A stretch of DNA of 54,663 nt from Gammaproteobacteria bacterium (GTDB lineage: Bacteria; Pseudomonadota; Gammaproteobacteria; Nitrosococcales; Methylophagaceae). The notes under the pieces were generated by a model. The model was not told where the DNA came from. It saw nothing but the letters and a program-made list of their open reading frames with translations, and did not search any database. Positions 31,618 through 33,953 of this stretch are shown here, piece after piece. Each line of letters begins with the position of its first letter. Within the stretch, counting starts at the first letter, position 1. A program made the position numbers and the translations under genes. The stretch covers positions 69,689 through 124,351 of the forward strand of contig JARGFJ010000002.1 in NCBI GenBank assembly GCA_029210875.1, in the 5' to 3' direction.

Positions 31618-32520
31618 ATGAATATAACAATCAGGCAATTACAGATCTTTGAAGCTGTTAGTATGCACTTAAGTTATACCCGTGCAGCAGAAGTTTTGTA
31701 TTTGAGTCAGCCTGCTGTTTCAATGCAAATCAAACAGTTAGAATCAGAAATTGATATGCCTCTATTTGAGCGTATGGGTAAACGTTTATTTTTGACTGAT
31801 GCCGGTAAAGAGTTGCAGATATATGCTCGTAATATCTCACAGCAGTTAGTCGAGCTAGAAGATGTTATATCTGAAATGCGTGGTAGTGAACGTGGACATC
31901 TAACTATCGCTGTTGCCACGACTGCAAACTATTTTGCGTTGAAAATATTAGGTGAATTTTACAAACGCTATTCCAGCACTAATATCAGTTTAGATGTAAC
32001 AAATAGAGCCAGTTTAATCAAACATCTAGCTGATAACACTGTTGATATGGTGATAATGGGACAACCTCCTGAAGGATGTGATGTAGAGGCGACACCGTTT
32101 TTGAAGAATCCTTTAGTAGTGATTGCACCGAGGCATCATTTTCTTGTGAGCCAAAAAAATATCCCGCTGTCTGAACTCCAAAAAGAAACGTTTATTATGC
32201 GTGAACTTGGCTCAGGGACACGGATTGCAATGGAACGTTTTTTTGAACAAGCAGGTTATAAAATTACCTCCGTGATTGAAATGAGCAGTAATGAGGCAAT
32301 TAACCAGGCAGTTGAAGCAGGGCTTGGATTGGGGATTGTGTCAAAGCATACTTTGGAATGGGAGTTGTCGTTAGACCGTTTGGTTATCCTGGATGTTGAA
32401 TCATTTCCAATTATGCGTCACTGGTATTTGGTTCATCGACATGGAAAGCGTTTTACTGCCATCATGGCGGCATTTAAAGATCTTGTAATTAATGAGACCT
32501 TATCTTTATTGAAAGAGTAG
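31618..32520 (+). CDS. cbbR: LysR-type regulator CbbR
   Basis: CbbR activates RuBisCO operons in response to metabolites such as RuBP, PEP or NADPH. The 300-residue protein has an N-terminal winged helix-turn-helix (RQLQIFEAVSMHLSYTRAAEVLYLSQPAVSMQIKQLE) and two effector-binding lobes (about 90-295). The identity rests on sequence type and on the divergent arrangement with cbbM. A perfect LysR palindrome lies just before its start, so it probably controls its own expression. The stop is followed immediately by the 200-bp structured element. Confidence 0.93.
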   Translation: MNITIRQLQIFEAVSMHLSYTRAAEVLYLSQPAVSMQIKQLESEIDMPLFERMGKRLFLTDAGKELQIYARNISQQLVELEDVISEMRGSERGHLTIAVATTANYFALKILGEFYKRYSSTNISLDVTNRASLIKHLADNTVDMVIMGQPPEGCDVEATPFLKNPLVVIAPRHHFLVSQKNIPLSELQKETFIMRELGSGTRIAMERFFEQAGYKITSVIEMSSNEAINQAVEAGLGLGIVSKHTLEWELSLDRLVILDVESFPIMRHWYLVHRHGKRFTAIMAAFKDLVINETLSLLKE

Positions 32521-32521
32521 T

Positions 32522-32720
32522 TAACCTGAATACTGGATAAGAAACAGCGCTCAGCAGCCCTAGTGACGCGAATAACGTCGTTGCAAAAGCGAGCAATAGA
32601 AAATACTATTACATCACTTTTGCGCCTTGTTGTTGACGCCACTAGAGCTACTGAGTTTAACAGTCTGATTACATTAGGGAAATAGTGTCTTGCACTATCC
32701 CTTATCCAGTATTCAGGTTA
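32522..32720. repeat. 199-bp structured element with perfect 20-bp terminal inverted repeats
   Basis: The ends at 32522-32541 and 32701-32720 are perfect 20-base inverted copies. Inside, 32550-32655 folds into a long imperfect hairpin: CTCAG/CTGAG, CTAGTG/CACTAG, GCAAAAG/CTTTTGC and an apical AATAG/CTATT. Then 32678-32700 forms a second hairpin (ATAGTG/CACTAT around a five-base loop). The whole reads as a three-way junction and fills the gap between the stops of two convergent genes. It could be a miniature inverted-repeat element, a structured RNA or a bidirectional terminator; no transposase or second copy is in the window. The structure was paired by eye. Confidence 0.7.
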
Positions 32721-32721
32721 G

Positions 32722-33168
32722 TTAGTCCAGTTTTAGCTGATCTGCTTCAAGCCACTTAACGTGTCCAAAACCAGCAATTAACCTGACCTTTACTAAATCT
32801 AATAGATAAAAGTGGAAACCGGGGAGTTGTACTATCATGTCCGCATCAGCAAAGTGTGTGACATAACGTTGGCGTAAGTCACTTTCATCATCAGCTTTTC
32901 TGGCATTAGCCAGACAGGTAATACGAGCACCGGCCTGAGGGTTATTTGAGTCTTCAGGATCGAATAAAGTTAAGGCTACTTTAGGATTAGCCAGAATATT
33001 GGTAGTGTGTTCTGCTAAATGACTAATTAAAATAGCTATTTCACCGTTATCGCTGATGATATAGGGCGTGATAGAACCAAATGGATAGCCCGCTTCTGTT
33101 ACTGAATGAGTTGAAAGTACACCGTAACGATGGCTTTTGATAAATTCACCTGGGTTTAATTTTGTCAT
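32722..33168 (-). CDS. FMN-binding split-barrel (pyridoxamine-phosphate-oxidase-like) protein
   Basis: This protein of about 148 residues belongs to the PNPOx-like flavin/haem-handling superfamily (HugZ-type N-terminal domain). The visible pattern is HRYGVLSTHSV...GYPFGSITPYIISDNGEIAILIS, HTTNILANPKVALTLFD, ARITCLANARK and the closing GFHFYLLDLVKVRLIAGFGHVKWL. Members include haem-degrading enzymes and F420/FMN oxidoreductases; which applies is not clear. I start at 33168, where ATG overlaps the upstream stop as ATGA; the frame is open to 33183. It is therefore translationally coupled to an HExxH membrane protein. Confidence 0.83.
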   Translation of the reverse strand: MTKLNPGEFIKSHRYGVLSTHSVTEAGYPFGSITPYIISDNGEIAILISHLAEHTTNILANPKVALTLFDPEDSNNPQAGARITCLANARKADDESDLRQRYVTHFADADMIVQLPGFHFYLLDLVKVRLIAGFGHVKWLEADQLKLD

Positions 33169-33953
33169 TCTTGAGAGATCCAATTAATTTCTGTCGCTGT
33201 TTTTTCACCGACGCTCACTTGTCTAAGACTATTCGCCATTTTAGCATCGTGTTCAGAAATGACCATTCTTCCCGCCATAATTTCAGCACGGAGTTGTGGG
33301 TATAGTGGCACTTTATTCGGATCAGCGTAGCCATCAGGATAAGTCGGCAAATTAAAGCGATCATATTTATCAGTTGCACCTACGGTATGTAAAATTTCAT
33401 GTGTCATTACAATTGCGTTTTGTGGGTTTTGTTTAGGATCAGCAAATGCGTGAACAATTCCAATCAAGCCTTTTTGTAAGCCAAGTGAATGTTCAAGTGC
33501 TTGGCTTTCTTTAGCTTGATGATAGATCACATAAAGTCTAATACGGTTTTTGTTGGATAATGAATCAGGCGTGTTTTGATAAGCCCAATATCGTAACTTG
33601 ATACTCCAGATAATGACTTGCAAGATAGCTGAACGATCTGTTGGCGGAGTTGGTGGATGTACGGTGATTGCCTGACCTAATGTCGTGATAATTGGCTGTG
33701 TTGCAATCAACTGATATTGCTCAGCATTTTGCGCAAAAAAGCTATCAATGTCTTTAAAGTCGGCAGTGCTAAGTTCAGATATATAACGATCTGTTTCTAA
33801 ACTAGTATCGCCATTTATAGGAAATATTGTGACGTAAACTGGTTTATACCAAGACCGGGAGTTTAGCTTCTGCTCTTTTGTATAGATTGCAGCATAAGCC
33901 AAAAGCCCTAGTAAAATAACGATGCGAACATTCTTAAAGGTAAATACTTTCAT
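33165..33953 (-). CDS. Membrane-anchored putative zinc metalloprotease (HExxH)
   Basis: This 262-residue protein is not recognised by name. A single N-terminal helix (about 8-24) anchors it, with the rest probably periplasmic. The zinc-type motif HEILH lies at residues 185-189 and continues HTVGATDKYD, with Asp195 and Asp198 resembling the extended motif of some metal-dependent peptidases. Upstream strands (LRYWAYQN, RIRLYVIYH) suggest an alpha/beta peptidase fold. Its stop overlaps the flavin-barrel gene start (ATGA). Protease activity is inferred from the motif only, and the substrate is unknown. Confidence 0.72.
   Translation of the reverse strand: MKVFTFKNVRIVILLGLLAYAAIYTKEQKLNSRSWYKPVYVTIFPINGDTSLETDRYISELSTADFKDIDSFFAQNAEQYQLIATQPIITTLGQAITVHPPTPPTDRSAILQVIIWSIKLRYWAYQNTPDSLSNKNRIRLYVIYHQAKESQALEHSLGLQKGLIGIVHAFADPKQNPQNAIVMTHEILHTVGATDKYDRFNLPTYPDGYADPNKVPLYPQLRAEIMAGRMVISEHDAKMANSLRQVSVGEKTATEINWISQE

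Follow-up and report, generated by a model that had tools for sequence, protein, structure and literature searches.

The 199-bp stretch between a LysR-type regulator gene and a convergent flavin-barrel protein gene on this gammaproteobacterial contig (positions 32522 to 32720 of the window, that is, of the whole 54,663-nucleotide stretch of DNA analysed here) is, with little room for doubt, a MITE inserted at a TANNTA target, with a shared hairpin module inside it, and was probably mobilised in trans by an IS982-family transposase. The locus itself is ordinary, being a new IS982 MITE. As for the hairpin module, here called the core, we tentatively take it to be an undescribed, strand-specific folded module (RNA or single-stranded DNA) that MITEs of two or more unrelated transposition systems (IS982-type with 6-bp TANNTA duplications, and IS5-like with 4-bp YTAR/CTAG duplications) and of several further end types may have captured across Pseudomonadota, and that may promote the multiplication of the elements carrying it, as a parasite of parasites. 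A preliminary description of the stretch had offered three options, namely a non-autonomous mobile element, a structured RNA made at the end of the cbbR or flavin-barrel transcript, and an elaborate two-way terminator; the first is borne out, since the element has terminal repeats and target duplications, exists in dispersed copies, is missing from an empty site in a relative and has an IS982 partner.

The insertion between two convergent stop codons

The closing helix, the long imperfect arm and the short arm seen previously are all present (Table 1), the first as an exact 20-bp inverted repeat. The three-way junction that they were said to form exists on the + strand, in which the minimum-energy fold of the 199-bp stretch (-82.5 kcal/mol, z -10.2) has this shape with an extra small hairpin at about 32664-32676. 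The - strand, however, folds as a single long rod of greater stability (-100.8 kcal/mol, z -14.6). On either strand, none of 200 shuffled sequences folded equally well or better, and the fold thus stood the proposed comparison with shuffled sequence. No ORF of 80 aa or more inside the element, and no transposase gene, appears in the ORF list. The neighbouring regulator scores 268.5 bits on the NCBIfam CbbR model, under the cut-off of 450.

Table 1. Features at and around the insertion (window positions)
Feature	Positions	Strand	Remarks
LysR-type regulator	31618..32520	+	beside form II RuBisCO; cbbR by position; stop TAG at 32518-32520
Left target duplication TAGTTA	32518..32523	.	includes the cbbR stop TAG; identical to 32719-32724
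Left terminal inverted repeat TAACCTGAATACTGGATAAG	32522..32541	+	outer TA doubles as target end
MITE proper, 195 bp without the duplicated target	32524..32718	.	missing at the orthologous site of G004; dispersed copies
Central long hairpin	32550..32655	-	stabler on -: -59.7 versus -43.8 kcal/mol on + (32548-32663 folded)
Conserved core hairpin	32572..32630	-	AAGGCG ... GTAATAG loop CTATTGC ... CAACG; common to palindromic elements with other end types
Short hairpin of the + strand fold	about 32677..32700	+	on the - strand, part joins the extended closing helix instead
Right terminal inverted repeat	32701..32720	-	exact inverted copy of the left repeat
Right target duplication TAGTTA	32719..32724	.	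TTA (32722-32724) is the stop of the convergent gene
PNPOx/CREG-type flavin-barrel protein gene, convergent	32722..33183	-	

At the orthologous locus of a close relative (genome G004), whose PNPOx protein is 95% identical to that of the present genome, the element is missing and only one TAACTA (TAGTTA when read on the opposite strand) separates the two coding regions. The empty site reads GGAC-TAACTA-CTCTTTTAAT, as against GGAC-TAACTA-[element]-TAACTA-CTCTTTCAAT in the window, so the ancestral site was TAG|TTA, a pair of abutting convergent stop codons. The exact filling of the space between the two stops, which had already been noticed, follows because these abutting stops were the target and were duplicated on insertion; the duplication left each gene its stop, and therefore neither protein changed. 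A general targeting of convergent stops by the MITE was considered and rejected: among 12 copies, both duplicates lie on the stops of long ORFs only at the window locus. In another relative, the same PNPOx-type gene is broken near a contig end by a sequence with an IS982-type end (AACCTGAATCCTGTTTAAG; L184, G023:C71), an independent hit on this gene.

Fifteen elements (11 in the present genome and 4 in G004) could be delimited at both ends among the 17 loci analysed. Nine of them have an exact 6-bp duplication of the TANNTA form (one of the nine being TAATCA), two have a duplication with one mismatch, and four have none.

Dispersed copies and a probable IS982 partner

The blastn check for dispersed copies, which had been proposed earlier, was made with window positions 32500-32740 against the element's own genome and yielded 38 pieces, grouped by position into 22 places. 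Four of these are nearly full-length copies, on contigs C22 (the window copy, 100%), C36 (97%), C19 (93%) and C2 (89%, 186 bp), and the others are shorter pieces, one place consisting of a family-B core only (see below). The terminal repeat, at up to three mismatches, occurs at 37 sites in the genome, and the reversed control pattern at none. When 59 genomes (own included) were searched, matches were found in eight; outside the own genome a full-length copy exists only in G004 (87%), together with shorter pieces, and G008, G014, G018, G021, G023 and G031 match the element through the core only. Near the C2 copy lies a 397-bp span (L004) that starts with TAACCTTAACTCTGGGTAAG, has IS982-like ends and contains a repeat-like segment.

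Shorter forms, 93, 107 and 111 bp long, have the same ends as the element and resemble it over much of their length but lack its central hairpin, and look like deletion derivatives; by eye, the 111-bp forms retain differing remnants of the long hairpin arms. Five of the short forms (L007 and L018 of 93 bp, L005 of 107 bp, L026 and L063 of 111 bp) have exact target duplications of their own, which suggests that the hairpin is not needed for movement. As proof of this the short forms are weakened by the fact that the hairpin might have been lost after insertion. That a whole family-B element had inserted itself into a 93-bp MITE was also considered, but finds no support, since only the core is homologous and the B ends are absent. 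A cluster of MITEs was observed at L204 2011-2640 (G000:C8), with two short A-type elements and one family-B element in about 650 bp.

An insertion sequence with the 5' end TAACCTCAGCTCGGGATAAG and the 3' end TAACCTGAGATCGGTTTAAG stands at contig ends in this genome, and TANN precedes the TA at 13 of 14 of its 5' ends and at all 13 of its 3' ends (26 of 27 in total, a count that leaves out L087 and L198-L200, which are other sequences). The assembly breaks at most copies, and the resident type was read incompletely. Its first 103 codons are 83% identical to a 294-aa protein of G008, which scores 273.5 bits on the IS982 family transposase model NF033520 of NCBIfam (cut-off 130); the 103-aa fragment itself scores 39.5 bits on that model and matches no Pfam family at 0.001. 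The G008 insertion sequence is 993 bp long, has a complete IS982 transposase and is flanked by duplicated TAATTA. By eye, the MITE end shares 15 and 14 of its 20 positions with the two resident ends, whereas its C-variant and the 5' end of the G008 insertion sequence have 18 in common.

The MITE and the resident insertion sequence thus have related ends and the same TANNTA target, which makes an IS982 transposase the likely mover of the MITE. The true partner may be another, perhaps lost, IS982, because the resident ends match at only 15 and 14 of the 20 positions. As we picture the movement, resident insertion sequences would supply the transposase in trans; it would bind the ends (TAACCTGAATMCTGGATAAG) and cut the element out or copy it, these biochemical steps being surmised, and the element would then enter at TANNTA with duplication of those 6 bp, here TAGTTA. 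A second IS982-type MITE, 124 bp long with the end TAACCTCAGTTCTGGATAAG, was observed at L067 1501-1624 and L069 1501-1624, with exact duplications of TAATTA and TATTTA.

The core hairpin and the elements that carry it

Element positions of about 52 to 110 match dispersed sequences in six relatives at 77-83%. The matching core is held by family B, a palindrome of about 172 bp with the ends TATACCCG, which occurs also in the own genome (G000 C1, C4, C8 and C22). Among the loci examined, four copies of the window element's own family, A, have cores that are recognised by a profile based only on B (E-value = 3e-9 to 9.5e-7); the profile misses the 186-bp A copy, the hairpin loop of which is deleted. 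An exact core pattern occurred in 38 stretches of the named genomes; 11 of those outside Methylophaga-type records were viewed (L131, L143 and L152 being left out of this inspection), and by eye ten were chance-like and one, L129 (UBA652), was a B element. Ten stretches of viral contigs (L379-L388) were also seen to have exact matches to the core pattern.

In the 40 A and B cores, 97.4% of the cells pair, as against at most 54.4% in slid controls, and five of the 17 pairs vary on both sides, with 15 such cells versus 1.5 after shuffling. A covariance model (R1) was built from these 40 cores and run against 369 class genomes, 314 of them good; it detected the core in 22, among them the own genome, and in 17 of the good ones. 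From part of the R1 listing 72 loci were taken, and 77 matches in them were aligned, five antisense or weak ones included. In this alignment, which was fitted to the structure and so leans towards it, 86.5% of the cells pair, the double-side changes number 249 versus 79.6 shuffled, and the covariation score is 0.493 versus 0.146 shuffled and at most 0.100 in slid controls; 13 of the 17 pairs have a double-side change versus 11.5 shuffled, a weak difference. Model R2, built from the R1 finds, was run against 398 phylum genomes, 338 of them good, and recognised the core in 82, including 57 of the good ones and some from outside the class. The covariance-model search that had been recommended shows a core with covarying pairs in dispersed elements of many genomes. 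The internal arm, as had been suspected, exceeds what a terminator needs, its core being a conserved, covarying hairpin common to other repeat elements.

The letters common to most of 27 chosen rows are GCAAGGC, GUAAUAG, CUAUUGC and AACGC; the stem that lies between these blocks is variable and covaries, and the consensus of about 58 nt is GCAAGGCR-stem-GUAAUAG-loop-CUAUUGC-stem-YAACGCMGC. A search of Rfam gave no family for the 199-bp stretch (best E-value 0.27, far under the gathering score) and, for the 40 core loci, only two tRNAs elsewhere in the loci; one core locus at a relaxed threshold gave an E-value of 0.035, under the gathering score. No description of the core hairpin was found in the open-access literature, which was searched mainly by titles and the beginnings of abstracts.

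By eye, the core is central in palindromes of several end kinds: TATACCCG; GGAACCTCTGAATAAGTC; GGGGGTGTTAACAATTACC or GGGGGCGTTCTCAATCACC; TATACCTCTCGCG; TAGTGGGCCATGCG; TAGTGTCCTGTC; and the IS982 type. Core-bearing elements with GGAACCTCTGAATAAGTC ends have TTAG or TTAA duplicated (L236, L248, L249 and L251), those with GGGGGTGTTAACAATTACC/GGGGGCGTTCTCAATCACC ends have CTAG duplicated (L241, L260 and L262), and the duplications are imperfect in others (L219 and L225). YTAR duplication is the habit of IS5. Since IS5-like YTAR duplications stand against the 6-bp TANNTA duplications of the IS982 type, at least two transposition systems seem to carry the core. Among the open frames listed for L291-L350, no transposase gene was recognised by eye between paired IS5-like ends. 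Longer arrangements were observed as well: L282 304-481 is a longer element with two cores in inverted orientation, and L371 1400-1720, L263 and L265 have, by eye only, a second inverted core with a CCCTTCGGG-like stretch.

A plasmid search with two core elements gave no match, nor did a phage search with one. BLAST of plasmids with two other such elements gave six and four records, in stretches that are unannotated in an incomplete gene table, covering 24-85% of the query; in the search listing these come from Cupriavidus, Diaphorobacter, Comamonas, Azotobacter, Pseudomonas and Halomonas.

Strand asymmetry and the possible role of the core

The strand of each element was named by the model match, i.e., by the core alone. 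When the core was folded with 70 nt on each side, the named strand folded better in 48 of 49 genomes, a count that arises partly by construction as the model scores the structure of that strand; with the core swapped for GAAA, it still folded better in 42 of 49. The arms were also aligned symmetrically with the core omitted, leaving out L217, L221, L232, L237 and L239, all of which contain the core at coordinates of their own with the match not at 1501. Arm alignments above the cut-off were obtained for 27 genomes and not for the other 22 of the 49. G.U exceeded A.C in 25 of the 27, fell below it in one and tied in one, with 202 G.U against 55 A.C cells outside the core. By similarity the arms form 29 clusters, of which 14 are testable; G.U prevails in 13 of these and A.C in one (p = 0.0009). 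The margin is slight in one of the 13 (11 to 10), and the single cluster favouring A.C has G.U 2 and A.C 5.

In family B, local alignment of the arms outside the core gave 156 G.U against 9 A.C. Looser counts, which include the core and some flank, were 286 to 103 and 303 to 115, and a count on RNAalifold pairs chosen on the named strand, and biased by that choice, was 245 to 18. The central hairpin of the A copies, one of four being badly aligned, gave 19 to 9. Keto and amino same-base mismatches were counted as a control for composition; the former exceed the latter by 40 to 5 in family B and by 59 to 40 in the other genomes, where keto mismatches are the more numerous in 13 genomes and the less numerous in 5. 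Composition may thus lie behind part of the G.U excess, especially in B. Elsewhere, that is, in the other genomes, G.U outnumbers A.C by more than keto outnumbers amino mismatches (Fisher p = 0.0005, the cells within an element family not being independent), and G.A exceeds C.U by 141 to 39, an imbalance that folding of the strand would permit; in family B, G.A and C.U number only 37 to 30.

To judge from these alignments, the strand bias suggests a folded single-strand module, RNA or single-stranded DNA alike, that is passed between MITEs. Our best guess is that a folded single-strand signal from the core would help its carriers to spread, and that the core would have moved from one end type to another by recombination or template switching at the palindrome. 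At Watson-Crick-majority pairs of family B, the recurrent variant states number 27 G.U to 8 A.C and the singletons 27 to 15; the weaker bias of the singletons fits the idea that selection acts on the source copies and not on each new insertion.

The same figures enter into a serious rival, which we consider somewhat doubtful: that the asymmetry and covariation of the core come from palindrome-correcting mutation, ancestry and a compositional skew between strands, with no function of the folded strand. Quasi-palindrome correction is a known mutational process, the copies derive from few masters, the singletons of family B are less biased than its recurrent states, the arms are slightly rich in G+T (0.532 versus 0.486 in the flanks), and same-base mismatches are keto-biased too. 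However, the same strand wins in nearly all of the testable arm clusters, the G.U excess in the other genomes surpasses the keto excess, and palindrome correction as such predicts no strand preference.

It is also conceivable, though improbable, that the core rides inside DDE-type MITEs but serves as a substrate for RAYT/TIRYT-like Y1 (HUH) tyrosine transposases, enzymes that work on hairpins of single-stranded DNA. This would account for folding on one strand, and Y1 transposase genes are present in 21 of 24 core-bearing genomes versus 5 of 14 control genomes. Among 30 Y1 loci, however, taken from part of the matches listed and with at most 1.5 kb on each side, only one contains a core (L411 2327-2385, G235:C267, in a core-rich genome). 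Y1 enzymes are not known to make target duplications, whereas the elements have them.

Orientation with respect to neighbouring genes, called as longest ORFs, could be scored at 52 of 63 loci; the other 11 were excluded because they did not have a gene within 500 bp on each side. Both neighbours lay on the core strand at 17 loci and on the opposite strand at 20, and the mixed arrangements -+ and +- occurred at nine and six; there was no clear bias. No Pfam family occurred in more than three of 94 neighbouring proteins (25 of 113 families shown). Because there is neither a clear orientation bias nor a common neighbour, a role in host mRNA is unlikely to have set the strand. These results also bear on the second option of the preliminary description, by which selection would keep a structured RNA (a 3' UTR element or small RNA) at this locus as part of the transcript of cbbR or of the PNPOx gene: the fold is very stable on both strands and the core covaries, but the dispersal of the copies and the lack of the element at the locus in G004 make such an RNA very improbable. 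A bidirectional terminator for the convergent genes, for which a strong fold between two convergent stops would speak, is scarcely credible, as a terminator scan of 32400-32850 gave no candidate site, the ten bases after the closing stem contain no run of five T on either strand, and G004 again lacks the element.

Among known elements, the Cardinium MITE MITECca01, which is about 240 bp long and has the IS982-family ISCca4 as its parent, is likewise gene-less, has the ends of a resident IS982 and occurs in many copies in one genome, so an IS982-derived MITE is not new as a kind (PMC9769881). As far as its description allows comparison, it differs in its host and in being derived from the parental insertion sequence, whereas the centre of the window element is a module common to other end types (PMC9769881). 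ERIC/RU-1, Correia/NEMIS, YPAL and other MITEs of 100-200 bp are described as similar in size, with terminal inverted repeats, TA ends and transcripts predicted to be long stem-loops, but each family has its own ends, unlike the core with its several unrelated ends and duplications of differing length (PMC2229807). GTAG/CGTC-tagged REPs with their RAYT/TIRYT proteins are also dispersed proteobacterial palindromes with a possible function as RNA or single-strand hairpins; as described, they are 20-40 bp long with a tag (PMC3733652), whereas the core is about 58 nt within palindromes of about 160-200 bp that have target duplications, and it lies near only 1 of 30 Y1 loci. QMITE1 and QMITE2 of Coxiella burnetii, compared by description only, are likewise palindromic, combine a core with ends that vary, and are in some cases transcribed (PMC5896051).

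In short, R2 places the core in about one fifth of the sampled phylum genomes, often in many copies and with several unrelated kinds of ends. Bacterial MITEs are usually viewed as decayed copies of one insertion sequence. If the tentative reading of the core as a strand-specific folded module is true, such MITEs would have a functional RNA or single-stranded DNA part of their own and swap their ends around it, and a hairpin that recurs on one strand makes it directly testable what a MITE gains from folding.
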